A stretch of 27,079 bases of DNA from a virus, in IMG/VR virus record IMGVR_UViG_3300025645_000372, positions 1-27,079 of that record; one strand, 5' to 3'. The notes beneath the pieces were generated by a model. The model did not search any database. It was not told the DNA's origin and was given only the letters and a program-made list of their open reading frames with translations. Below, one piece after another: positions 1-27,078 of the stretch. A program made the translations under genes and the position numbers. Positions within the stretch are counted from its first letter, which is position 1; every line of letters begins with the position of its first letter.

Positions 1-1668
1 ACCAATCATAGTTTGCATAGGGTTTGTTTGTTTACCTAATAATTTATTAAATATTGCTCCATCAGCACTATTTAAGTCACCAATAGATACCATCGGTGTC
101 TTAGATCTTTTTGCAGCTTCACTCAATGTAGTTCTGTTTACAAAAAATTCAGGTATGTCAAAAATAGCATCTGATGGTTTATCAAATCTAAGTCCTTTAG
201 GTAATCTTGCTGAATTCAATACTTTCTCTACCATACCTTCAGCTCTAAGATCGGATAATGTTTCTCCTCTTTTAGCCAACTCTGGATTAGCTGTGGCCCA
301 ACTGTCTTTGAATAATTGTCTAGCATTTTTTACAGCTTCAGCAGCAGGTTTGTATCTTAACCAGGGTATAATACTTTTGTCTTGAAATATGTCATAAGTA
401 GAACCCAAATAGTTTTTAAATTTACCACCAAACAAAGCTTTGAATTCTTTAAGATCATCGGGACTCAGTGTTCCTCCAAGCTCATCAAACAATCCAGCCC
501 ATTTTTGTCTCATAATAGTTAGACTACTCACAATACTTTTTTGTATTTCATCAGCTTCATCAGCACTGGTTGCAACTTTTTTTATTTTGTCTTTAACTTT
601 TTGAAGTAAAGCCTCATCCATCTCACCAAACTGAGCTCTTGTTCTTGCGGTTGCAGCATCAAAACCTTCTTGTCCTGCTATTCTGCCTGCAGCATCTACT
701 ACCTCTTCACCAAATTCTGCTTTACCTGATAACAATGCATCATTAACTTCATTTAAAAATACTTTTCTTTCTTGTGCAGTACCTTTGTTAAACACAGTAC
801 GCATAGCCGGAAACATTTTATCAATATCTATATCTAAATTTCTAGATAAATTTCTTGCAACGTTAGCGTCAGCTGCTCTTAGTCCAATAGATTCTCTTTC
901 AATAGCAAACTGTTCTGCTGTCTTACCACTTCTAGACCTGAAGTTGGCCATAGTCTTATCAATCCATCTATCTATTTTAGAATTAGCTATGTCTAAATTT
1001 TTATTTCTATTAGTAATTTTACCAATTACTTTACCTACACCGCCAAGAACACCGGTAAACATTGCACCCTCAGTACCAAACTTAACTCTATTTAATATTT
1101 CTCTTGTAGCATCAGGAGATGTGTCGCTTCTATTTATTGCAGTTGGTCCACCTAATAGATCTCCAAATGTACCTGCTTGATCTACATCACCAATAAAAAT
1201 ACCTTCAGCTATACCACCACCTAATGCACCAGCCATAAAGGCCCTGCCTTTTCCTTTAGCGGTAAGTTCTAAAGCTTTGTCAGCAGCTTTTACTAAACCC
1301 TCATCTGCTACTCTGAATAAAGTTTTATTTTTACCAGCAAGCATAGCTGTCTTTGCTATACCACTCGCACTTTTAAAAGCTACACCACCAGGTACTCCGA
1401 TATTAACTAATAGTTTTGTAATTTTTCCTGCAGCTGTTGCTTCTGCTTTCTCATCAAATTGTGTTAGGTTATCAAACCATGCTTCAACATCAGCAGCTTT
1501 GCCACTGTTAACACCCAGATCCATGATGCTTGCTCCCAGTGAAAAGAAACCTTTAGGTATACCAATAAGACCAGACGCTACACCTGATAGCATTGATTCT
1601 ATTGTACCTACTTTGTTATTATTTTCTGCGCTCTTTAAAGCGGTTAAGTAATTAAACTCAGAAGACAT
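1..1668 (-). CDS. large internal/ejection-type virion protein, 3' end missing
   Basis: An open frame of 556 codons runs from an ATG at 1668 to the left edge with no stop, so the C-terminus is missing. The start follows an excellent Shine-Dalgarno (AGGAGG) at about 1673-1678. The protein starts MSSEFNYLTALKSA and is mostly helical and rich in Ala, Lys and Gly. Small-residue stretches such as GRAFMAGALGGGIAEG (about residues 150-165) and TGVLGGVGKVIGK could be membrane-active. No peptidoglycan-hydrolase or other catalytic motif was recognised. It is the last gene of the structural run, after several internal-protein-like genes, which fits a large DNA-ejection or internal virion protein of a short-tailed phage. 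That role is inferred from position, size and composition. Confidence 0.8.
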   Translation of the reverse strand, partial: MSSEFNYLTALKSAENNNKVGTIESMLSGVASGLIGIPKGFFSLGASIMDLGVNSGKAADVEAWFDNLTQFDEKAEATAAGKITKLLVNIGVPGGVAFKSASGIAKTAMLAGKNKTLFRVADEGLVKAADKALELTAKGKGRAFMAGALGGGIAEGIFIGDVDQAGTFGDLLGGPTAINRSDTSPDATREILNRVKFGTEGAMFTGVLGGVGKVIGKITNRNKNLDIANSKIDRWIDKTMANFRSRSGKTAEQFAIERESIGLRAADANVARNLSRNLDIDIDKMFPAMRTVFNKGTAQERKVFLNEVNDALLSGKAEFGEEVVDAAGRIAGQEGFDAATARTRAQFGEMDEALLQKVKDKIKKVATSADEADEIQKSIVSSLTIMRQKWAGLFDELGGTLSPDDLKEFKALFGGKFKNYLGSTYDIFQDKSIIPWLRYKPAAEAVKNARQLFKDSWATANPELAKRGETLSDLRAEGMVEKVLNSARLPKGLRFDKPSDAIFDIPEFFVNRTTLSEAAKRSKTPMVSIGDLNSADGAIFNKLLGKQTNPMQTMIG

Positions 1669-1676
1669 CTATCCTC

Positions 1677-2987
1677 CTATGTCAATTGATTTATAGATAC
1701 CGGAATAACTTGACCATCCATAACTTGAATTATTCTATCTTTTATAACATAAACTCCATCTGGATAATCTGGTGTTGTCTCATCTGCATTAACTGTTGCA
1801 ACTACTGAAGTAATGTAATCAAGTGGATCTTGTCCCTGTTCCATTTGTCCTGAAGGTAGTACCTTAGCATCAATTCCTTTTTTAACACGTAATAGTGATG
1901 CAAGTTCTGAACCTTGGAACATATCACCTTTTTCCATTCTCGTAGAAATAATTTCTGCCATACTTTTTCCAGCTAATGATTTATCAGCAATTTCAATTTG
2001 TTTTTGTTTAAGTAATTTAGCAAGTGCATTTTCTTCTTTGTTCATTTCTTTAGTGATCTCACCTTTAGCAATAAGAGATCTTAATGCAGCTTCTGTGTCA
2101 CCCACTTTATCGAATCTTTTACTTGCAGCAGTAGTTAATTTAGAAATTAAACTACCATCTTTAATACCTTCTTTTAGATTACCACCTTCTCTAATAATAT
2201 TACTTGCATCAATTAAAGATTTATAAGCTGCGTCTTTACTCATACCTTTGATGTCCATAATCTCTTTGTATTTGTCCATCTTTTTCATTCTTGCGTCTGC
2301 TTCTATTTGTTCTCTCTCTGCATCTGTTAATTCTTTTTCAGGAGCTGTGTAGGTCATGTCAGGATTCCCGCCGCCTGGTGCTCCAGACGTTCCTACCTTA
2401 CCACCTAATTTAATATTACCTTTTGGTGGTGGTACTTCTTTATTATCTTTATTAAAAAATCTTCCATTAGCAAAATATAAACCAGTTAAAGCCCCTGTTG
2501 GAGAAACAACAAACCTAGCTGCACCAGCAAGTTTTCCAGTTACGGCTGGGTTAGTAACACTTCTATAAATTCCGCCGACTAATTTAACAGTTGGATCTCT
2601 ACCTAAAAAATTAGGCTCGTATATGTTTTGAACTGGTCCTGCTTTGTTTACAACCGTAGAACCTTGATTAGTAAATCTACCCGGAGTTCCTGGGGCTCCT
2701 GGAATTCTTACTGTACCCGCTGATTTTGTGCCAGTTTTAGTTCTAGCTAAATTTTTTAAAGCGTTTATTCCTCTAGGAATATATCTTGCGCCTGCTCTTG
2801 CTGCTCCCATAATTAAAGGTATAAAAGGAGTTGCTGGTCCCGCATAACCTGGTCTGCTACCATCATTACTAGGTTGAACTCTTTGTGTCATAGACCCACC
2901 ATTTCTTTTTGGTTCCCGGATCCCGTGCATGACACCCTCTTTAATAGGGCCGCCGTATCTAAACATTGGTCTATTTAAAGTCTTCAT
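1677..2987 (-). CDS. virion-associated protein with N-terminal YGG/GG motif (436 aa)
   Basis: The N-terminus carries MFRYGGPIKEG and then RNGGSMTQR, the same Gly-Gly style of element seen in the proteins at 3904 and 5782. A hydrophobic segment (about residues 53-65, TPFIPLIMGAARAG) follows. A Gly/Pro-rich middle part (about 85-210) leads to a helical, charged region (about 215-385) and a short beta-like C-terminus ending in SINQLT. I recognise the N-terminal pattern from proteins of pelagic marine phages but know no assigned function. The start is 2 nt after the upstream stop in the arrangement TAATTATG. Its place among internal-protein-like genes suggests a component ejected with or attached to the DNA; this is an inference. 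Confidence 0.8.
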   Translation of the reverse strand: MKTLNRPMFRYGGPIKEGVMHGIREPKRNGGSMTQRVQPSNDGSRPGYAGPATPFIPLIMGAARAGARYIPRGINALKNLARTKTGTKSAGTVRIPGAPGTPGRFTNQGSTVVNKAGPVQNIYEPNFLGRDPTVKLVGGIYRSVTNPAVTGKLAGAARFVVSPTGALTGLYFANGRFFNKDNKEVPPPKGNIKLGGKVGTSGAPGGGNPDMTYTAPEKELTDAEREQIEADARMKKMDKYKEIMDIKGMSKDAAYKSLIDASNIIREGGNLKEGIKDGSLISKLTTAASKRFDKVGDTEAALRSLIAKGEITKEMNKEENALAKLLKQKQIEIADKSLAGKSMAEIISTRMEKGDMFQGSELASLLRVKKGIDAKVLPSGQMEQGQDPLDYITSVVATVNADETTPDYPDGVYVIKDRIIQVMDGQVIPVSINQLT

Positions 2988-2989
2988 AA

Positions 2990-3904
2990 TTAGTTTCTTC
3001 TGCCGCCGTAGATTTGACCAAATAATCCTGCAACACCTGTAGCACCAGCTAATGCAGATGCGTAAGGATCTGATTGTTGTTGGTCTTGATATTGTTGTCC
3101 AGCAACACCACCACTTAAACCTGTAAGCATGTTACCATATTGATTTAATCTTCCGTAAGGTTCATAAGCCCCAGTCTGTGCTGCTTGTTGATCAGCTGTT
3201 AATAGAGCTTGGTTGTATGCTTGATTAACTGAACCTAAAGATCCAAGAGCATTAATATCTTGACCCATACCTTGTCTACCAAAGTCAGATAGACCAAACT
3301 GTTGATTCATTTGATTACCATATGCACCGGCTAGTCCTTGTTGTGCGTTTGCAATAGCTCCTTGGTTACCAAAATTTTGCTGTGCTAATTGATTAGCTTG
3401 ACCAAAACCTTGTTGTAATAATTGTGCTTGTAGTGCACCTCTGTTTACTAATGAGTCTGCATTGTACTGACCCATCATAGCACCTTCTCTACCACCACCA
3501 AAATTTCCAGAATTAACTGCGGCATCTCTGATTTGTTGTTGTCCACCTAATCTAGATTTATCATACTCAGATAAAGTAGCGTTGATAACATCTGTTTGAT
3601 ACGGAGACATAAAAGGTTGATAAGCCTGTGGTCCTGTTAAAGCACCTAAGCCACCAATAGTTTGTGCTGATTGTCCCAGAGCCCCGGCCCCTGCTGTCTG
3701 TGCAGTTTGTGCTGCTTGTAAATATGGTGAGTAAGAACCAACACCTTGTGTTGCAAGCGCTGCCGCTTGTGTTTGCATAGGATCTTGTCCTGCAACGAAT
3801 TGTCTACCGGTAAAAGTATCTGTATTAATTGGCGCAGAGTATGCAGCCGTTGCCTGTTTGGAATAATCTTTTACTGTATCTTCTAAAAAATCTGGTATTG
3901 CCAT
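2990..3904 (-). CDS. Ala/Gln-rich internal virion / DNA ejection-type protein
   Basis: This 304-residue protein is very rich in Ala, Gln and Gly. It contains the block SPYQTDVINATLSEYD (about residues 100-115), then a glutamine run and NSGNFGGGREGAMMGQY. I recognise this arrangement (an N/SPYQ..VI..TL..YD block followed by GxFGGxRxG) from podovirus and siphovirus structural proteins annotated as DNA-transfer or internal proteins. The C-terminal part (about 240-304) is Gly-rich and ends in QIYGGRRN. The ATG overlaps the upstream stop as TAATG, indicating translational coupling. The internal or ejection role is taken from the family resemblance and the neighbours; no catalytic motif is visible. 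Confidence 0.8.
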   Translation of the reverse strand: MAIPDFLEDTVKDYSKQATAAYSAPINTDTFTGRQFVAGQDPMQTQAAALATQGVGSYSPYLQAAQTAQTAGAGALGQSAQTIGGLGALTGPQAYQPFMSPYQTDVINATLSEYDKSRLGGQQQIRDAAVNSGNFGGGREGAMMGQYNADSLVNRGALQAQLLQQGFGQANQLAQQNFGNQGAIANAQQGLAGAYGNQMNQQFGLSDFGRQGMGQDINALGSLGSVNQAYNQALLTADQQAAQTGAYEPYGRLNQYGNMLTGLSGGVAGQQYQDQQQSDPYASALAGATGVAGLFGQIYGGRRN

Positions 3905-5091
3905 TATATCATCCTTGATTGTAATGCTTGTTGTTGTTCATACATTGCTTGCGCGCCGTCTGGTTCTTGTATCATTTCTTCAGACATCATTTCTTCTCCA
4001 CCACCTAAACCTTGTGAGTCTTCTGAAACTTGTCCGCCTTGTTCTAAGTTATCCATTAAATTTTGCATAACTTCTGATCCTCTATCTATATCTCCACCGC
4101 CTGCGTTTCTTACAGCGTCTGCAGTGAATACAAATTCATTCTTACTTAATCTTGCAGGTACATCGTCAGCTCTTTCTTCGCCACCCATTGCCACAAAACC
4201 GCCTTCATCTCTGTAATCTTTTTCCATACCACCCATGTCAATCATTTCTGCTTGTTCAGTATCCATTATTCCACCACCTTCATCGTAGTTCATTCTACCA
4301 CCGTTTGCAGCCATCATAGGTTGTTGCATACCTTGTTCTTGTTGTTGCATTACTGCTTGAACAAATTGTTGGAAAGATAACTCTCCACCTCTGTTCTTAT
4401 ATTTTATAAATTCTGCTTGAAGCATTTGTTCTGCCTGTGCTTCACCTGCGCCACCACCCATTGCTAAAAATGCTGTGGGCATTCTTCTACTTTGACCAGC
4501 ACCTGATCTCATAAATTCTTCTTCGTCTTCAATGTCGCCACCCATTGCATAACCGGCTCTGCCACCTTCAGCTGCATAGAAATTTTGATTAACATATTTT
4601 TTCTGTGGCATAAAGTTTAAACCTACACCAGCATCACCTTGACCACTGTAATAATTTTTTGCACTTTGTACTGCTGCGTTTGGATCTAGTTGAGTAACAT
4701 CTTCTACTACTTCTTCATCACCACCACCCATAAATAGAGGGGCCATAGTTGCTAGACCTAAACCACCGAGTGCTACTTTACCCATGTTAAATTTACCAAC
4801 AGCATCACCAACACCTTTATCTCTAAATAAATTTGAGAGACTCCCCATCATTCCAGGTTTTCCTTCCATAAATCTTCCGGCAAAACCTTTAATACCCATG
4901 GGACCAAATTTATTTAATCCGTATCCTGCTGCTGCACCTAACGCTAGTTTACCTAATGGACTTTTAGCAATTTTCTTAACACCACGTACAGCTTTCTTTA
5001 CAAAGCTACCTAAACCGTAGTTCTGTCTAGGGGCACTTAGTCCACCGTATTCGTACATCTGTCTTGGTTGTTGCATATTTGAAATTGGCAT
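3904..5091 (-). CDS. virion-associated protein with repeated GGR-x-x-Y-x-x-GG elements (395 aa)
   Basis: The N-terminus has MYEYGGLSAPRQNYGLG and then a basic stretch (about residues 31-50). A small-residue hydrophobic region (about 105-124) follows. The C-terminal half carries EGGRAGYAMGG (175-185), NGGRMNYDEGG (263-273) and EGGFVAMGG (296-304). A highly regular block around 309-334 includes VPARLSKNEFVFTADAV and GGGD; I recognise this block as recurrent in marine phage proteins, without a known function. The tail is acidic and rich in Met and Gln. A good start with SD-like AAGGAT lies just upstream. It is probably a virion or internal protein, based on its neighbours. Confidence 0.8.
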   Translation of the reverse strand: MPISNMQQPRQMYEYGGLSAPRQNYGLGSFVKKAVRGVKKIAKSPLGKLALGAAAGYGLNKFGPMGIKGFAGRFMEGKPGMMGSLSNLFRDKGVGDAVGKFNMGKVALGGLGLATMAPLFMGGGDEEVVEDVTQLDPNAAVQSAKNYYSGQGDAGVGLNFMPQKKYVNQNFYAAEGGRAGYAMGGDIEDEEEFMRSGAGQSRRMPTAFLAMGGGAGEAQAEQMLQAEFIKYKNRGGELSFQQFVQAVMQQQEQGMQQPMMAANGGRMNYDEGGGIMDTEQAEMIDMGGMEKDYRDEGGFVAMGGEERADDVPARLSKNEFVFTADAVRNAGGGDIDRGSEVMQNLMDNLEQGGQVSEDSQGLGGGEEMMSEEMIQEPDGAQAMYEQQQALQSRMI

Positions 5092-5115
5092 AATTTTATC
5101 CTTAGTCTATACGTT

Positions 5116-5283
5116 TTACTTTGTTTTACTGAACAAATCAAGAGCTGGCATTATAACTTTTACGTCCTGTGCCATCTCCTCCGCCTTGAAACCCTTAGCT
5201 TCCCAGTCTTTTCTCTCTTTAAAAAGCTCACCGGTCTCAATGTGTCTATAAGTTGTTTCTACTTTTGCTTGTTTTATTTCCAT
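5116..5283 (-). CDS. small hypothetical protein (55 aa)
   Basis: A short gene fills the gap between the small beta protein at 5283-5618 and the large protein at 3904-5091. It starts with MEIKQAKVETTYRHIETG and ends LDLFSKTK, stop TAA at 5116-5118. The start overlaps the upstream stop as TAATG, the junction used repeatedly in this operon, which is the main reason to believe it. The product is charged and probably helical in its centre (FKERKDWEAKGFKAEE). I do not recognise a family, and the function is unknown. Confidence 0.6.
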   Translation of the reverse strand: MEIKQAKVETTYRHIETGELFKERKDWEAKGFKAEEMAQDVKVIMPALDLFSKTK

Positions 5284-5618
5284 TAGTCTACCTTTTCTTT
5301 TTTGATGTTTAAATAACTTATTGCATAATCAAACGAGTCTGAAGTGCTTGATTGTATTGTAAATCCTGAGCCACCTTCTACGATCAATGGTTGAGTCAAT
5401 AATTCTGCTGTAACATTAGCTGTTAGTTGTGCTGATTTGATAGCTGTAATACTGTTGTTTGTAACAGTCACTGTTGGGGTACCTGCAGATGTAACTAAAA
5501 TTGATTTAATAATTATAGTCTCATTAACACCTGGAGTACTTGCTGGAAAAACATCTAAAGCACTTCCCGTAGTGTTGTTATCTATTCCTACAAATTTATA
5601 TTGATTTACTACTGCCAT
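5283..5618 (-). CDS. small beta-rich virion protein (111 aa)
   Basis: The protein starts MAVVNQYKFVGIDNNTTG and is composed of alternating short beta strands rich in Thr, Val and Ile. The central pattern IIIKSILVTSAGTPTVTVTN resembles the corresponding part of the 121-residue protein at 15313 (VKVNSIIVGNIDGSSSANVS), so the two may be distant relatives with a small beta-sandwich fold. Both ends are coupled by TAATG overlaps, at 5618 and 5283. A virion decoration or tail-associated role is plausible from composition and location, but nothing gives a precise function. Confidence 0.75.
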   Translation of the reverse strand: MAVVNQYKFVGIDNNTTGSALDVFPASTPGVNETIIIKSILVTSAGTPTVTVTNNSITAIKSAQLTANVTAELLTQPLIVEGGSGFTIQSSTSDSFDYAISYLNIKKEKVD

Positions 5619-5782
5619 TATTCCATGAAGAAACTTTTAGCTTCTATCTCCTGTTTTACTTCTTCCTGAAAAGAAGTGTTTAATTTTGTAATCACTGAGT
5701 CCAGATCCCTGACTAAAGATTGGAATGTTCGTTGTTCATATTCTTTTGATGCTCTAGTTAATGATTGTACAATTTTTGCCAT
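5618..5782 (-). CDS. small hypothetical protein (54 aa)
   Basis: A short gene lies exactly between two longer ones, with TAATG overlaps at both ends (start at 5782, stop TAA at 5618-5620). The product starts MAKIVQSLTRASKEYEQ and ends EAKSFFME. It is strongly helical with a coiled-coil-like heptad character in the centre (FQSLVRDLDSVITKLNTSF). The perfect fit between neighbours and the charged amphipathic composition support a real gene. I recognise no family; an assembly or binding helix is possible. Confidence 0.65.
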   Translation of the reverse strand: MAKIVQSLTRASKEYEQRTFQSLVRDLDSVITKLNTSFQEEVKQEIEAKSFFME

Positions 5783-8097
5783 TATAATAAACCTGCTAGG
5801 CCTCCGTTTTTAAAAGTATATTTTCCATATAGTCCGGCAGTTTTTTGTCCTGTAAATGGATCCATTTCACCTCCTGCACTAAACTGTAGGGGCCCATCTG
5901 GACTGCCAATATTTTTTTGATAACCTATTGTACCTGTTGGATCTTGACTTAATAAATTATTGGCATTTGCATAAAAACCATTTTTTTGAAAACCTATTCC
6001 TAAATTAGGTTGTGTGCCTCCTTCAACTATTTCTTTAGAAAGATTGGCATTAAATGTTCCATCATTATATGTCAATGAGGGTGTTAGATCTGCATTATAA
6101 TAACTACCATCTTTAAATTTATCTTCTTGATAACTACCATCCAACCCTACTTTAAAATTATTTCCTACATCAAATGTTTTATCTACACCTAATTTATTAG
6201 TAGTGTATCCGTAATCATTGTCTCTAAAAGTAGACCCTGTTAAGACACCATCACCATAATTAAAACCTAATTTAGAATCATTTATAGTGCTATCATTAGT
6301 GTTAAGATTTGCTCTTAAATTTAAATCACCTAAATCATAATTAACTCCAGTATTTAAAATTCCTTCTTCAATATTAGGACTACTGAAGTTAAAATTACCC
6401 ATAGTATAATCGCCACTAGTATTTGATTGAGTTCCAGTTGTATCAATTGATCTAGTTAAATTTAATCCTTCTACTGGAGATATGGTTTGTTTTAATACAG
6501 CTTGATCTATAAGAGACTTAGCTTTGTCCCCATCAATCATTCCATATTTGTCTTCAATCTCAATGTCCGGATACTGTAAATTTAAATCAGTAAGATTGTT
6601 TGTGTACAAATTTTTATTTATTGTTTTAGGTCCATTGGATCTATTCATAAAAAATGGGATGTTTCTATTTTTAGAAAGAATTTGATATCTTTTAGCATTA
6701 TCGGACAGTAATTGACTTTTATCTACACGATCGGGTATCATACCGGTTAGTCGTTCATTAATTTTTTCGTTAATTTTTTTATTGACATCTACTGTAGGAA
6801 CTAAATTATTACTATTATCACCACCGTAACTTTGTTGTCTACCAGATTTGTTTTGTGAAGAGTCATAAGATCCTACAGAGTCTGCACCATATTGTGATTC
6901 AGCATCTGTTCTACCACGACCACCTTTTTTATAGTTTACTCTACCACCAAAGAAGTATCCGGCTCTACCGCCTTTAGCAAACCCAAAATCAGACCCATAA
7001 CCATAATCAGATTCTTGTTGAGTAGTTGGTCCCGAGTCGCCTTGAAAATTATTATCGCTACTACGTATATTACCTGCATTACTTATATCTATACCTTGTC
7101 CAGCTCCGCCACCACTAGTTCCAGTAGGGGTGTAGTATTTAGCAGCCTGAGCAGCCGCAGCAATCTCAGCATCTTTAGCAGCTGCATCCGCCGCATCTTT
7201 ATTTTGTTTTTGAGTTGCTTTATAAACAGCGGAAGCTTCTTGAAGTTGTTTTTTTTGAAACCCAGTTAATTCCTCTTCATCTTTTAATTTTTCATAAATT
7301 TCTAGTTGATTGGGTACGTAATTTGTTGCTTGAAAATTTTTACCTGTTAAAGTTTTAAAACCTTGTTCACCACCAAACAACATGTTTTCTCCTGCTAAAG
7401 CATTGTAGGCAGCTTTTTTATCGTCACTTAATCCTGCTATACCATACGTCCCACCACTTGGACCATTGTCATCACCCTGTGGTAAAAATTTTGTTGCCAT
7501 ATTTAAAGGAAAAGGAAGTAAACCTCCTGCAAACTTTGCAACATCACCTACTTTATTTTTAAATCTATTTAATTTACCTTTCATAAAACTATTAGGATAT
7601 TTTTCACTTGGATACATTTCATTGTTACCTAAAGTACCTTGATAACCTAGGTCCATACTATCTTCATAAGGACTATTGTATTGTCCCTGTGCCCCGTACT
7701 GTTCTTTGTTGTTCATTATCTGCTCACCATAATAATCCATTACTTCTTGAGAAGGTCTCATTCTTGAAAAAGTCTCAACTGTAGGTCCTGCATTACTAGC
7801 TTTGTTATACATAGTTTGTGCATTTGCTACTGAACCCGTAGGGTCATTTGATTGAGGATTAAAAGTTCTTACATTAACTTCACTTACAGGAGAACCATAA
7901 CCAAAAGCATTACCTGTTGGATTAAAATTATTACCACCACTATTATTAAAAGCATTTGTATTTGTTATTCCACCGGGTACCGGTGCTACAGGTTCTGGAT
8001 CTGTTGGAAGAGTAAGACCTAGTCTATATTTTTCTTGAGGAAGAAATTTATATTTTTTATAAAGTTCTTGGTCTGCTGCATTATAAAACGCTACCAT
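5782..8097 (-). CDS. large virion/ejection-type protein with GGR motifs and beta-barrel-like C-terminus (771 aa)
   Basis: Residues 1-200 are Asn/Gly/Tyr-rich and loosely structured. Residues about 255-320 form a helical, Ala-rich segment. At 375-396 there is a triple Gly-Gly element (KGGRAGYFFGG, then GGRVNYKKGGRGR), the same motif as in the protein at 3904. Residues about 550-771 consist of alternating amphipathic strands with Asn/Gly/Asp turns (for example LRANLNTND, LGFNYGDGVLTGSTF, FKVGLDGSYQEDKF, LGIGFQKNGFYANANN), ending YTFKNGGLAGLL. That pattern looks like an outer-membrane-type beta barrel. The start overlaps the upstream tail gene's stop as TAATG. A role in ejection or host-envelope contact is inferred only. 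Confidence 0.8.
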   Translation of the reverse strand: MVAFYNAADQELYKKYKFLPQEKYRLGLTLPTDPEPVAPVPGGITNTNAFNNSGGNNFNPTGNAFGYGSPVSEVNVRTFNPQSNDPTGSVANAQTMYNKASNAGPTVETFSRMRPSQEVMDYYGEQIMNNKEQYGAQGQYNSPYEDSMDLGYQGTLGNNEMYPSEKYPNSFMKGKLNRFKNKVGDVAKFAGGLLPFPLNMATKFLPQGDDNGPSGGTYGIAGLSDDKKAAYNALAGENMLFGGEQGFKTLTGKNFQATNYVPNQLEIYEKLKDEEELTGFQKKQLQEASAVYKATQKQNKDAADAAAKDAEIAAAAQAAKYYTPTGTSGGGAGQGIDISNAGNIRSSDNNFQGDSGPTTQQESDYGYGSDFGFAKGGRAGYFFGGRVNYKKGGRGRTDAESQYGADSVGSYDSSQNKSGRQQSYGGDNSNNLVPTVDVNKKINEKINERLTGMIPDRVDKSQLLSDNAKRYQILSKNRNIPFFMNRSNGPKTINKNLYTNNLTDLNLQYPDIEIEDKYGMIDGDKAKSLIDQAVLKQTISPVEGLNLTRSIDTTGTQSNTSGDYTMGNFNFSSPNIEEGILNTGVNYDLGDLNLRANLNTNDSTINDSKLGFNYGDGVLTGSTFRDNDYGYTTNKLGVDKTFDVGNNFKVGLDGSYQEDKFKDGSYYNADLTPSLTYNDGTFNANLSKEIVEGGTQPNLGIGFQKNGFYANANNLLSQDPTGTIGYQKNIGSPDGPLQFSAGGEMDPFTGQKTAGLYGKYTFKNGGLAGLL

Positions 8098-10353: not shown

Positions 10354-10824
10354 CTAAAAATAGTTTATATTAATGTTAAAACGACATTTTTTATCTGTGC
10401 AATTTGTGCTTTGATGTGGTTGATTTGAATCAAATAATAAAATTCTATTACTTATAGACTGTATAAATTTATCTTTTATCCATGTGCCACCATCACATGT
10501 GTTTATATAAAACACAGCTCCATTATGTTTAAATGGAAAATCAATATGTTCGTTATATTTAATAATTTCTTTAGTGCTTGGAAAACAATTAACTTTTACT
10601 CTTAACAATGTAGATACTTTTAATTTATCTAACACAGGAACTATTAAATCAAAATATCTGCTTTTTTCTTTTTTTTCATTAAACAACTCATGAGTAAAAT
10701 AAAAGTCTTTGTCACCTTTATGTGCAACATTATTTTTAAAATAGTAGGGAATGTGATTGCTCATCATAACTGAACTAAGATTTTCAAAGTCTTTTTGTGA
10801 TATAAAATTTTCTCTAATTTTCAT
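10354..10824 (-). CDS. 2OG-Fe(II) oxygenase, HxD type (156 aa)
   Basis: The protein starts MKIRENFISQKDFENL. It carries the complete facial triad of the 2-oxoglutarate/Fe(II) dioxygenase superfamily: H93-x-D95 in NEHIDFPF, distal H137 in FDSNQPHQST, and the 2OG-binding Arg148 near the C-terminus (CRFNININYF). The block GAVFYINTCDGGTWI between them matches the beta strands of small oxygenases common in marine T4-like phages. It is probably a hydroxylase acting on a protein or small molecule, with unknown substrate. It is the last gene of a cassette with four more oxygenases and a sulfotransferase, starting 2 nt after the upstream stop (TAGTAATG). The DNA is markedly AT-rich. Confidence 0.85.
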   Translation of the reverse strand: MKIRENFISQKDFENLSSVMMSNHIPYYFKNNVAHKGDKDFYFTHELFNEKKEKSRYFDLIVPVLDKLKVSTLLRVKVNCFPSTKEIIKYNEHIDFPFKHNGAVFYINTCDGGTWIKDKFIQSISNRILLFDSNQPHQSTNCTDKKCRFNININYF

Positions 10825-10826
10825 TA

Positions 10827-11408
10827 CTATTTAATTCTAAAGTTATAAGCTAAAGATATTCTTGGTTTATTAGATTTATTTTGTTGGACCCCATGCATTA
10901 GATTAGATTTAAATATAACTAGTAGCCCTTCTTTAGGAATTACTTTAAATTCTCTCCAAGTAAAAGGATTATTTTTTATATAAACACGTTTTATGCCTTT
11001 AGGTTCAGGGGAAATAAATCTTAAATGTCCACAATCTTTAGGTGTTGATAAAAAATAAACAGCAGATATTTCATTTCCTTCGTGATCATGGGCTTCTTGA
11101 TAGTCATTTTTATTATAATAATTAAACCAACTTAATTCACAAAACATTTTTTTATCTGTATACCCAAGTTTATCCGCAAACACTTTGACCTCATTAAATA
11201 TCCAACTATGTAAGTCATCAAATTTTTTGTTTTTATGTAGGTTATTTGTTTGGCAAGTATTATAAACTGTGGCATCCCAATTATCTCCTCCACATTTAAT
11301 TTTATTTTTAAGAACTTTACATTCTTTTATTAATTTATCTTTCATAGTTTTATGGTTAGGGTTTTCACTAAATCCAACAGGTGTTATAAATATTCCTTCT
11401 ATTTTCAT
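10827..11408 (-). CDS. 2OG-Fe(II) oxygenase, HxH type (193 aa)
   Basis: I chose the ATG at 11408, which overlaps the sulfotransferase stop as ATGA, over an in-frame TTG two codons upstream. The motif QEAHDHEGNEISAVYFL (His107, His109) is followed by IFKSNLMHGV (His172) and PRISLAYNFR (Arg183). This matches the putative 2OG-Fe(II) oxygenase family known as TIGR02466 / 2OG-FeII_Oxy_5, in which H-x-H replaces the usual H-x-D. It is therefore a probable Fe(II)/2OG hydroxylase of unknown substrate. It shares architecture with the 181-residue oxygenase at 12757, so the two may be old paralogues. Fe coordination by this variant is assumed from the family. Confidence 0.85.
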   Translation of the reverse strand: MKIEGIFITPVGFSENPNHKTMKDKLIKECKVLKNKIKCGGDNWDATVYNTCQTNNLHKNKKFDDLHSWIFNEVKVFADKLGYTDKKMFCELSWFNYYNKNDYQEAHDHEGNEISAVYFLSTPKDCGHLRFISPEPKGIKRVYIKNNPFTWREFKVIPKEGLLVIFKSNLMHGVQQNKSNKPRISLAYNFRIK

Positions 11409-12154
11409 GACCAAAGATAATTATCTATTTCCTCACATTTATTTAACATATCTTTATTTAAAAAGTTTGATTCTTTACGTAACTGTATTCCATCTTCGTG
11501 AATTAAATGCATGTCATCTATGTTACACTGTTTGTCTTCATATAAAACATTGTTAATATTTAATTGTTGTAGTTTATATTCTACAGGTTTGTATTCAATA
11601 TTTAAAAAATTAAATATATTTTTTACCGTGTCATTTGTACTCTCAACTAAGTCTTTATAATTAATTATTATTTTGTCCTCGTCCGAAGACATTAAATTTT
11701 TAATTGATTCAATGTTGTTTGTTAAAACTGTATTTTTATTTAATAAACCTTCTAAATACTTTGATCTATTATCTTCTTTACATATTGAAGCAAATGAATT
11801 TAAAATTTCTTTCATAGGTCTTTTTAATATAATAAATTTATTTTTATTAAACAAAGTATTAATTATATTAAGATTAAACTCTTGGCCCCAAGATGATCTA
11901 TCAATTACATAGTCACAATCCCAGTGACTATAATAAGAATCAAAAACAGATCTGACAACGTTTTCTAAAGATTTATGATCTGGAAAATTTAAAAACTTTT
12001 CATCTCTTTTTAATAAAAATAAACTATTAAATATTTCTGGTAATAAACTATTTGCTGTTGTTTTTACATTTTCGTGTTGATTTAATAATACAGCTAATAA
12101 AGTATTACCACATCTAGGTAATGCAGTTAGAAAAAAATATTCTTTAGCAGTCAT
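11405..12154 (-). CDS. sulfotransferase (PAPS-dependent type, 249 aa)
   Basis: The N-terminus FFLTALPRCGNTLLAVLLN (residues 7-25) has the 5'-phosphosulfate-binding loop of sulfotransferases (PRSGST-like, here PRCGNT). Residues 107-123 (FIILKRPMKEILNSFAS) form the 3'-phosphate-binding block, with Arg112 and Ser120 at the canonical eight-residue spacing. The remainder is helical with little family signature, as usual. The enzyme should transfer sulfate from PAPS to a hydroxyl or amine on a glycan, protein or small molecule; the acceptor is unknown. It sits inside a run of five 2OG oxygenases, overlapping its upstream neighbour by 11 nt and its downstream neighbour by 4 nt. Oxygenase-made hydroxyls could be the acceptors, but this is a guess. 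Confidence 0.85.
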   Translation of the reverse strand: MTAKEYFFLTALPRCGNTLLAVLLNQHENVKTTANSLLPEIFNSLFLLKRDEKFLNFPDHKSLENVVRSVFDSYYSHWDCDYVIDRSSWGQEFNLNIINTLFNKNKFIILKRPMKEILNSFASICKEDNRSKYLEGLLNKNTVLTNNIESIKNLMSSDEDKIIINYKDLVESTNDTVKNIFNFLNIEYKPVEYKLQQLNINNVLYEDKQCNIDDMHLIHEDGIQLRKESNFLNKDMLNKCEEIDNYLWS

Positions 12155-12764
12155 GTGGTAAACCTATAAATGCTCTTTTATCAAACTTATTTTCTTCTGC
12201 TTTTTTTGTGCCTTTTATATTGTAGTGTAAAAATACTTGCACACACCAATTTCCATAAAAAACTTCTCTCCAATGCTCAATTTTTTCACCGTTGTATATC
12301 ATTAAATCCCCCATTTTTAAATTTATAGGGATTCCTTTTAATCCTGTTTTACCTGATGGTTCTACAAATATAGGCCACTTCTTGTCTTGAAATAAAGTTA
12401 AGGTTGCAGATATTTCACAACTGTATCTGTCTTTATGTCGTCCCAATATATCTCCATGTTCATATATTCTTGTATAAGAGTATGTTGGAACAATTTCTTT
12501 TTTTATTTTATTTTCTATTACAGATTTCATTCTTACTAATAATATTTCCATAGCAGTGTCGGAATAATGGTTATAAGAAAATGGAACTTGACCATCGCCA
12601 AAAGAACCCCAACCTAAATTGTCTCTTCCAATCATTTTTTTATTATGTAATCTTTGTGATACCTGTCTTTTAAGCATAAGGTATTCTGCTGCAAATTTAC
12701 AGATATCCTCTGAAACTGCTTTCTTAATAACTAAATAATTATCTTTCTTAAATTTTTTACTCAT
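12144..12764 (-). CDS. 2OG-Fe(II) oxygenase, HxD type (206 aa)
   Basis: The double-stranded beta-helix motifs are visible: RIYEHGDILGRHKDRYSCE, with His110 and Asp112 as iron ligands, and MIYNGEKIEHWREVF with distal His164. The strand FLHYN follows at about 178-182. The Arg that binds 2-oxoglutarate is less obvious than in the neighbours (Arg166 is too close to the His; Gln176 lies near the expected place), so cosubstrate binding may differ. I recognise the RHKDR...CE and HWRE patterns from marine phage and alphaproteobacterial oxygenases. It overlaps the upstream oxygenase by 8 nt (ATGAGTAA) and the sulfotransferase by 11 nt. The substrate is unknown. Confidence 0.8.
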   Translation of the reverse strand: MSKKFKKDNYLVIKKAVSEDICKFAAEYLMLKRQVSQRLHNKKMIGRDNLGWGSFGDGQVPFSYNHYSDTAMEILLVRMKSVIENKIKKEIVPTYSYTRIYEHGDILGRHKDRYSCEISATLTLFQDKKWPIFVEPSGKTGLKGIPINLKMGDLMIYNGEKIEHWREVFYGNWCVQVFLHYNIKGTKKAEENKFDKRAFIGLPHDC

Positions 12765-13302
12765 ACCTCATATTAAAAGCTAATGTATATCTTGGATCTT
12801 CATCTTTTACAACATCTACTAAATGCATTTCATTAGAATTAAAAATAACTATTCTACCTCTCTTAGGTTGTATGGCCCCTTTAAAATTTACAAAATAAGT
12901 TCCTGGTTTTTTATTTGAAAAATATATGTTTCCACTAATGCTATCCCAATTTCCTACTATATGATTATGTTTTTGAATATAATCATTTTTATTTAATCTG
13001 TTTCCCCATGCATCAATTAATTCAATTGTATTAATATTATTTCTAGCTATAGATATAAATTTAAATAAGTAAGGATTAATAAATTTAGTTATTGTTTCAA
13101 AATCTTTGTCATTTATAAAATGATTCCAAGAGGTCATTTCTCCTTTAACATTAGTTCTTTTAGTCATCGATGAAATTAAATTTTTTTCTATTTTATTTTC
13201 TAAAGAAGACAAAACTTTTTCATTAGTATAATCTATAAATAAAATCTTATCTTTTATTATACCCCAATTAATTTTATTTTTATTACCACCTATTAGTCTC
13301 AT
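12757..13302 (-). CDS. 2OG-Fe(II) oxygenase, HxH type (181 aa)
   Basis: The C-terminal half shows the TIGR02466 / 2OG-FeII_Oxy_5 pattern. A Trp-Gly-Asn stretch (DAWGNRLNKNDYIQKHNH) contains His112 and His114, followed by SISGNIYFSNKKPG, the block PKRGRIVIFNSNEMH with His160, and DPRYTLAFNMRYE with Arg171. The N-terminal part (about 20-90) is helical and variable. It is a probable Fe(II)/2OG hydroxylase; the substrate cannot be deduced. It begins 2 nt after the stop of the upstream oxygenase (TAATTATG) and overlaps the next gene by 8 nt. Base composition is extremely AT-rich; bases 13201-13260 contain only 9 G/C. Confidence 0.85.
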   Translation of the reverse strand: MRLIGGNKNKINWGIIKDKILFIDYTNEKVLSSLENKIEKNLISSMTKRTNVKGEMTSWNHFINDKDFETITKFINPYLFKFISIARNNINTIELIDAWGNRLNKNDYIQKHNHIVGNWDSISGNIYFSNKKPGTYFVNFKGAIQPKRGRIVIFNSNEMHLVDVVKDEDPRYTLAFNMRYE

Positions 13303-13304
13303 AA

Positions 13305-13904
13305 TTATTTAAACTGTGGCCCTAGTCTCCACATGACAGCAGAATATCTAGTTCCTTTTGTTACGGGTTCTACTTTGTGATTTAAAAAAGAAGGAAATAC
13401 AATAATACTTCCTACTGTATCTAGTTCTTTAACTTTGTGTTTTATTAACTTGCCATTATCATCTATCCACTGCAACATAAAATCACCACCTTTATAATCT
13501 TTTGGATCATTTAATAAACAAGACATTGATAGTTTTCTTTGTTTGTTATTAAAGTGTTCGTCTTTGTCTTTTATAGTTTCTTGAAACATATCATAGTGCC
13601 AATTATAAAACCCATTTTTCTTGTAACTTGTAAACTGTATGTTTTCATTCCAGTCTGTATCAAAATTCCAACCAGCTTTTTCATTTGCATAATTAACTGC
13701 TTGATTAAATATATTATAAATCCACTGATCCTTTAACCAAGTTACTTTGGAATCTCTAATTTTTTTATTTACTTTCTTTTTATTTTTTTGCATTCCTATT
13801 GTGCCGGAACCTAATTTTTTATCTACACCTAATTTAATTATTTTTTTACAGTCTTCTGGACTTATAAGGTTTTTGAAGTACCAATACTTATATTTTAAAT
13901 ACAT
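13305..13904 (-). CDS. 2OG-Fe(II) oxygenase, prolyl-4-hydroxylase-like (199 aa)
   Basis: This is the clearest oxygenase of the set. NGFYNWHYDMF gives His103-x-Asp105, IIVFPSFLNHKVEPV gives His176, and TKGTRYSAVMW gives Arg186 with Ser188. These are the metal and 2OG ligands in the order and spacing of P4H/PKHD-type hydroxylases. The N-terminal YWYFKNLISPEDCKKIIKLG (about 7-26) is the typical start of such enzymes. It is the first gene of the accessory cassette, 23 nt downstream of a tail-associated gene, with an SD-like AGAAAG. A protein or peptide hydroxylase acting on a virion or host target is possible. Start and frame are secure. Confidence 0.88.
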   Translation of the reverse strand: MYLKYKYWYFKNLISPEDCKKIIKLGVDKKLGSGTIGMQKNKKKVNKKIRDSKVTWLKDQWIYNIFNQAVNYANEKAGWNFDTDWNENIQFTSYKKNGFYNWHYDMFQETIKDKDEHFNNKQRKLSMSCLLNDPKDYKGGDFMLQWIDDNGKLIKHKVKELDTVGSIIVFPSFLNHKVEPVTKGTRYSAVMWRLGPQFK

Positions 13905-26834: not shown

Positions 26835-27078
26835 TTTTCTTTTTAGGTATAACACCTTTAGCCATTAAGATATCTTTCTTAGTAATTTTTCCATCACCTG
26901 AATGATCTGGAAATTTACTTTTCTTTTTCATTTTCTTTTTAACGGATCCACCTTTCTTATACATAGCTCCGCCTTCCATACCCATATCAGATGGATAATA
27001 ACCAGATTTCATGTCGGCTCTTGCCATAGCTGGATTCATAGATCCACCCATATTTTTTTTAGCTCTTCCGCCATTCAT
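26827..27078 (-). CDS. small GG-motif protein with EF-hand loop, possibly 5' truncated (83 aa)
   Basis: The reading frame reaches the right edge, so the ATG at 27078 may be internal. The N-terminal half has NGGRAKKNMGG and EGGAMYKKGG, the Gly-Gly element seen in three large virion proteins of this window. A Lys-rich stretch (47-55) follows. Residues 58-69 (DHSGDGKITKKD) match a calcium-binding EF-hand loop: D1, S3, D5, G6, I8 and D12 in the right places. The remainder is LMAKGVIPKK. I have seen similar PD.SGDGKIT.KD endings in other marine phage proteins. The role is unknown; calcium binding is plausible. Confidence 0.7.
   Translation of the reverse strand: MNGGRAKKNMGGSMNPAMARADMKSGYYPSDMGMEGGAMYKKGGSVKKKMKKKSKFPDHSGDGKITKKDILMAKGVIPKKKNA

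Follow-up and report, generated by a model that had tools for sequence, protein, structure and literature searches.

Why would otherwise dissimilar virion-type proteins of one phage carry the same short peptide? The question is raised by the 27,079-base IMG/VR contig IMGVR_UViG_3300025645_000372 (hereafter the window), in which a preliminary description, made from the letters and their open reading frames (ORFs), had noticed a recurrent GGR-x-x-Y-x-x-GG element and taken it for a common handle of several proteins. The source phage is a SAR11-type marine phage; the capsid region of the window is ~75% identical to that of pelagiphage HTVC027P, and is also similar to those of 023Pt_psg01 and HTVC023P. 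We conclude that this is a genuine short linear motif, which occurs once per linker, as tandem units of eight residues (octads), or with a GGLAx[IL]L cap at the C-terminus. We tentatively suggest that it docks proteins of the DNA ejection module onto a common partner in the virion.

A recurrent peptide in the window

The window has four copies of the strict pattern GG[RK]..[YF]..GG, two in a 395-residue protein and two in a 771-residue protein, all on the minus strand (Table 1). The expected count was 0.013 in whole-protein shuffles and 0.021 in shuffles within 30-residue blocks, and none of 2000 shuffles gave four copies. Composition or chance was rejected by these shuffles and by the single-genome counts given below, and the motif is very probably real. 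The two bearers have no other visible similarity, as had been stated earlier; aligned by BLASTP, they match best at the motif itself (15 residues, E 0.16). The third protein first named as a bearer, an 83-residue product at the right edge of the window, does not belong with them in the strict sense, because its NGGRAKKNMGG lacks the aromatic residue; gp47 of HTVC027P has GYKVGGRVSKMGGGK.

The wider core reads A-x-GGR-[IVA]-[GN]-[YF]-x-x-G(G), and variants of it extend the initial list. The N-terminal GG of the 395-residue protein, listed before as a related form, is part of GGLSAPRQNYGLG, where RQNYGLG fits an R-x-[GN]-Y-x-x-G core and PRQNYGLG directly precedes a basic amphipathic segment. 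The 436-residue protein had been cited only for its N-terminal YGG, and it also carries the core variant DGSRPGYAGP; the same slot shows GGR..Y forms or VDRGNYANG in relatives. Its N-terminus holds a second recurrent peptide, RPMFRxGG followed by G(I/V)(M/T)xG(I/L) (2949-2972), and N-terminal peptides of this type are common to the 436-residue family and more distant viral proteins.

Table 1. Motif copies, variants and the genes that carry or adjoin them (residue numbers refer to the protein named).
Feature	Position	Strand	Remarks
Window (IMG/VR contig, 27,079 bases)			nearly all likely genes on the minus strand
771-residue predicted structural protein with tandem array	5782..8097	minus	
Array unit 1, 771-residue protein, GGRAGYFFGG, residues 376-385	6943..6972	minus	
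Array unit 2, 771-residue protein, GGRVNYKKGG, residues 384-393	6919..6948	minus	first GG common with unit 1
Inserted segment, ~370 residues, ~residues 394-761, between unit 2 and cap	5815..6918	minus	
C-terminal array cap, FKNGGLAGLL, residues 762-771	5785..5814	minus	
395-residue predicted ejection-module protein with copies 1 and 2	3904..5091	minus	PHROG 5448 and 23013; tblastn to tape measures
N-terminal core variant, 395-residue protein, PRQNYGLG, residues 21-28	5008..5031	minus	
Copy 1, 395-residue protein, GGRAGYAMGG, residues 176-185, AAE before it	4537..4566	minus	conserved; predicted disordered
Copy 2, 395-residue protein, GGRMNYDEGG, residues 264-273	4273..4302	minus	predicted disordered
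304-residue neighbour, DNA-ejection-protein-like, without motif	2990..3904	minus	PHROG 4287 'DNA ejection protein', E 5.6e-6
436-residue predicted ejection-module protein, N-terminus MKTLNRPMFRYGG	1677..2987	minus	homologue of HTVC027P gp84
Core variant, 436-residue protein, DGSRPGYAGP (SRPGYAG), residues 42-51	2835..2864	minus	
Large protein, N-terminal part, running off the contig	1..1668	minus	homologue of HTVC027P gp85 (1342 residues)
Degenerate form without aromatic, 83-residue protein, NGGRAKKNMGG	27043..27075	minus	right edge of window

Conservation of the peptide and its tandem array

Conservation was read from 31 usable homologues of the 395-residue protein, obtained independently of the motif from 50 homologous loci that were located via peptides outside it (one such pattern sits just downstream of copy 1). 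This subset was relied on because a separate 84-member table includes motif-selected loci. In the 31 sequences, A174, G176, G177, R178, G180, and G184 of copy 1 are conserved at 97-100%, against an average of 55% over residues 120-275, and the only columns of that region at 95% or above are the core residues of copy 1 together with G273 and G274 at the end of copy 2. The GGR and the trailing GG of copy 2 are conserved across homologues, its Tyr mostly not. At the N-terminus, Y25, L27, G28, K32, and K33 are invariant, whereas around half of the sequences have a gap at R22. In an AlphaFold2 model from a 29-sequence alignment, which is poor (mean predicted local distance difference test score, pLDDT, 50; predicted template modelling score 0.22) and was read for order and disorder only, both copies lie between helices in stretches with pLDDT of ~33-40. 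Short linear motifs typically stand out by strong conservation in regions predicted to be disordered, and here the conserved residues lie in such a region, otherwise variable, and recur above chance in unrelated proteins.

Selection acts on the peptide, because the motif codons vary synonymously. Over 381 distinct motif copies, the Gly, Arg, and Tyr codons match background usage, with the exception that the first motif Gly avoids GGA (4% vs 17% at other GG pairs of the same ORFs, all loci), perhaps escaping a Shine-Dalgarno-like GGAGG. In one genome (G008), the six copies are not one repeated DNA word, because their Arg codons differ (AGA, CGT, CGG, CGA). A repeat or packaging signal at the DNA level was therefore rejected. 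The Arg itself is strict, with 67 GGR..[YF]..G against four Lys forms (copies that are not independent of one another), though Lys is the commoner residue.

In the family of the 771-residue protein, the motif is a tandem eight-residue unit near the C-terminus, for example GGRAGYFF-GGRVNYKK-GGRVSFKN-GGLAGLL, and GGLA[SG][IL]L forms the C-terminus of most complete homologues. The window protein reads GGRAGYFF-GGRVNYKK-GGR, then ~370 inserted residues, then FKNGGLAGLL, so that the FKNGGLAGLL end pointed out earlier is the last unit of the same array. Two close relatives with the same inserted segment were found; at the same site other homologues have different segments (some beta-rich, some helical-looking) or none, and the cap is kept. 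Among 1968 distinct complete ORFs from these loci, 78 GGLA-type C-termini were observed vs 3-4 expected, falling in 11 groups unlinked by BLASTP.

An AlphaFold2 model of residues 394-771 (378 residues, three sequences) gave a long beta-meander at low confidence (mean pLDDT 41.6). Searched with Foldseek against the PDB, the meander had nearly only transmembrane (outer-membrane) beta-barrels among its 50 best matches, at E 0.0017 or worse and template modelling scores of ~0.25. The possibly barrel-like nature of the inserted segment is thus a lead from modelling, not a result.

Two rival explanations bear on this arrangement. By the first, a phage protease would split internal proteins into their domains by cutting at or near GGR as the head matures. 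The copies do lie between predicted domains in disordered linkers, as cleavage sites do, and a single prohead protease is known to cut a short consensus in many head proteins of T4 and giant phages (PMC5694885). However, a protease site fits poorly because the conserved footprint spans ~11 residues with fixed spacing, and because cut sites would hardly be expected in the frequent tandem octads or at the very C-terminus, where a unit also lies. Moreover, none of the genes of the window was recognised as a protease gene, and we regard cleavage as distinctly unlikely. By the second, RGG/YG-type linkers, or short beta-strands with GG turns, would act as self-associating stickers that condense the ejection proteins or let them add strands to each other, with no dedicated receptor. 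The Gly/Arg/aromatic make-up, the exchange of Tyr for Phe, and the low Lys content would suit such chemistry, and the tandem octads suggest, as judged from their sequence, six-residue strands with GG turns. Yet the fixed spacing and the conserved Ala at -2 and Gly at +4 exceed what sticker chemistry needs, and most linkers hold a single copy, a low valency, which makes self-association unlikely.

Recurrence in single genomes and in unrelated families

HTVC027P, chosen by capsid similarity and, like 023Pt_psg01, picked without regard to the motif, has GGR..[YF]..G four times vs 0.01 expected, in gp41, gp42, and gp82, and its gp84 carries VDRGNYANG. 023Pt_psg01 has three matches (0.01 expected), found in the gene that follows terminase and at the positions of the 395- and 436-residue proteins. 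For both genomes the permuted-motif controls came out near expectation; of these controls, R.[GN][LIV]..G was raised in the genomes G008 and G009. The large motif-bearing gene of HTVC027P between terminase and portal, gp42 (L002 13406-16084), has weak PHROG matches, near residues 111-183, to helix-turn-helix/invertase families; its motif is followed directly by a segment that is basic and hydrophobic.

A scan of 18 larger viral contigs gave up to six matches per contig, all on the same strand of the contig concerned, and few matches to reversed-pattern controls. Most of these contigs had been chosen for a copy that they contain, so that for them only the additional copies, in other genes, are informative. 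In one relative (G002), the forward pattern was not found and the reversed control matched once. Genome scans found GGR..[YF]..G absent from HTVC023P, HTVC010P, HMO-2011, T7, and P-SSP7. The preliminary description had called for comparison with composition and within individual phage genomes; both comparisons were made, the motif is enriched in both, and the proposal of a recurrent element stands.

Cellular genomes have almost no copies of the motif. The form A[DN]GGR[IV]GY..G was found in at least 120 places in viral contigs and in eight places in ~85,000 prokaryote species (one genome each), mostly chance by context. A host or prophage motif was rejected: two of the eight places (L176 and L178, on small contigs of metagenome-assembled genomes) look viral by context and the rest look like chance, including L177, which resembles 5-formyltetrahydrofolate cyclo-ligase.

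After masking of the motif, the bearers fall into 32 groups, several of the singletons among them probably chance. In a first clustering, by single linkage, most bearers fell together in a group of 265; stricter clustering splits it and over-counts families. The largest group is big because many members have a tape-measure-like C-terminal region. The number of independent bearer families is uncertain, above three.

These groups bear on common descent, by which the motif would be a leftover of linker domain shuffling or duplication with no function of its own. Many bearers do form a loose superfamily with a DDVPARLS..EFV C-terminal region, and the tandem octads suggest local duplication. However, within fast-evolving linkers no part is more conserved than the motif, which also occurs in groups without detectable homology after masking and has synonymously differing codons, so that descent alone, already disfavoured, is very improbable.

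As far as could be searched, the motif is undescribed, in agreement with the earlier statement that no named domain covers it. In the window proteins, none of the GGR..Y copies falls within a Pfam or PHROG profile as a named element, and no solved chain in the PDB matches, with no useful solved relatives by sequence. A concatenated motif peptide gave no tblastn matches, probably owing to low-complexity filtering. Among 5.39 million open-licence papers, no description was found and GGRIGY-like strings occurred in a single paper, on an unrelated subject, although an earlier mention elsewhere is possible.

A candidate docking role and its relation to known systems

Downstream of a 728-residue virion structural protein (PHROG 3287) lies a run of genes for proteins of 771, 111, 395, 304, and 436 residues, and after the 436-residue gene comes the N-terminal part of the large gp85-type protein. 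This is the usual place for a podovirus ejection module. PHROG 4287 is matched by the 304-residue neighbour and by two of 57 motif-bearing proteins, not by the motif bearers of the window itself. Elsewhere in the window, positions 10354-13904 form an AT-rich block (GC ~0.26) with several small genes, where relatives have 2-oxoglutarate-Fe(II) (2OG-Fe(II)) oxygenase genes between tail genes, a family assignment made by eye and gene order. The candidate that the motif is a substrate of a phage 2OG-Fe(II) oxygenase was weakened, since HTVC023P has such genes and no motif.

Of the four options first offered, namely an assembly tag, a shared binding partner, a protease site, and a packaging signal, one of the first two fits best; a DNA packaging signal is unsupported, given the synonymous variation of the codons and the selection on the peptide. 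There is good support for a common handle, as the peptide is conserved, lies in disordered linkers and C-termini, and recurs in unrelated genes of one genome. From sequence evidence, we tentatively propose, at somewhat less than even confidence, that it is a short linear docking motif recruiting ejection or internal proteins to a common virion partner. Copies sit in disordered linkers and C-termini of predicted DNA-ejection-module proteins and, in relatives, of large terminase-adjacent genes; as the particle assembles, each would dock onto the same surface, be it the portal, the core, or a large ejection protein such as the gp85-type one, and unrelated internal proteins would thereby be co-recruited before DNA packaging. 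The gp85-type protein may be the first candidate partner, because the gp82-gp84-gp85 block occurs in all eight motif-bearing genomes compared, neither gp84 nor gp85 occurs in any of the five others, and no homologue of gp82, gp84, or gp85 was detected in HTVC023P. The docking proposal is further supported by the bearers' place next to a PHROG 'DNA ejection protein' and their likeness to the ends of tape measures, and by the cap being kept despite the different segments inserted before it.

Several points weigh against docking. The bearers are predicted to be internal or ejection proteins from gene order and weak profile matches, and the putative partner is proposed from gene co-occurrence in few genomes. 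Some bearers are small and basic, or are encoded next to the terminase, and may or may not be packaged. Furthermore, the gene set of HTVC023P is comparable and lacks the motif, so the function of the motif is replaceable.

Some of the same facts touch on a ligand role, by which the motif, after ejection, would use its Arg and Tyr to bind packaged DNA or some component of the envelope of the host. The bearers, as predicted ejection proteins, would meet both envelope and DNA, and one of them has the barrel-like segment. However, bearers also include terminase-adjacent genes and small proteins, and HTVC023P and HTVC010P, thought to infect the same host strain, lack the motif; a ligand of this kind is quite improbable.

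A bolder form of the docking proposal, which we consider rather doubtful, is a shared peptide code of marine phages of this type, in which octad and GGLAx[IL]L cap, read by one virion receptor, would be an address label for unrelated, exchangeable proteins, including the barrel-like segment, entering the ejection apparatus. With a motif that marks co-assembling proteins, many dark genes could be assigned to the ejection apparatus from their sequences alone, and the motif would lead to its receptor.

Compared with known systems, the bearers resemble T7 gp14/gp15/gp16 and DEV gp71-gp73 in their gene position after tail genes and in having a PHROG 'DNA ejection protein' neighbour, whereas no sequence relation to those proteins was found and T7 has no GGR..[YF]..G. 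The C-terminal part of the 395-residue protein (region GGFVxxGG..DDVPARLS..EFV..ADAV) is detectably similar to siphophage tape measure C-termini, with tblastn matches in Tsukamurella and Gordonia siphophages as well as PHROG 5448 and 23013. The related stretch, GGFVAMGG..DDVPARLSKNEFVFTADAVRNAGGG (4093-4206, residues 296-333), occurs although the setting looks podoviral. The GGR..Y motif is distinct from that region, however, and the 395-residue protein is short and of podovirus type, not a full tape measure.

Closer in kind are peptides that recur over many proteins of one phage. In phiKZ and SPN3US, head-protein propeptides carry one short consensus across many inner-head and ejection proteins (PMC5694885); there, the consensus is a protease site ending a long N-terminal propeptide, whereas here the motif forms linker repeats and a C-terminal cap. 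In T4, the capsid targeting sequence (CTS) of IPI-IPIII and Alt is a ~10-residue peptide common to divergent internal proteins and was proposed to recruit them to the head (PMC9026906). The likeness is a short peptide common to otherwise divergent proteins of one phage; the CTS, however, is N-terminal and removed by protease gp21, while the copies described here are internal, tandem, or C-terminal, of other sequence, and with no known cleavage. By analogy, the motif would work like the T4 CTS but outside that system, and chosen proteins could be loaded into such particles, as with the T4 sequence.

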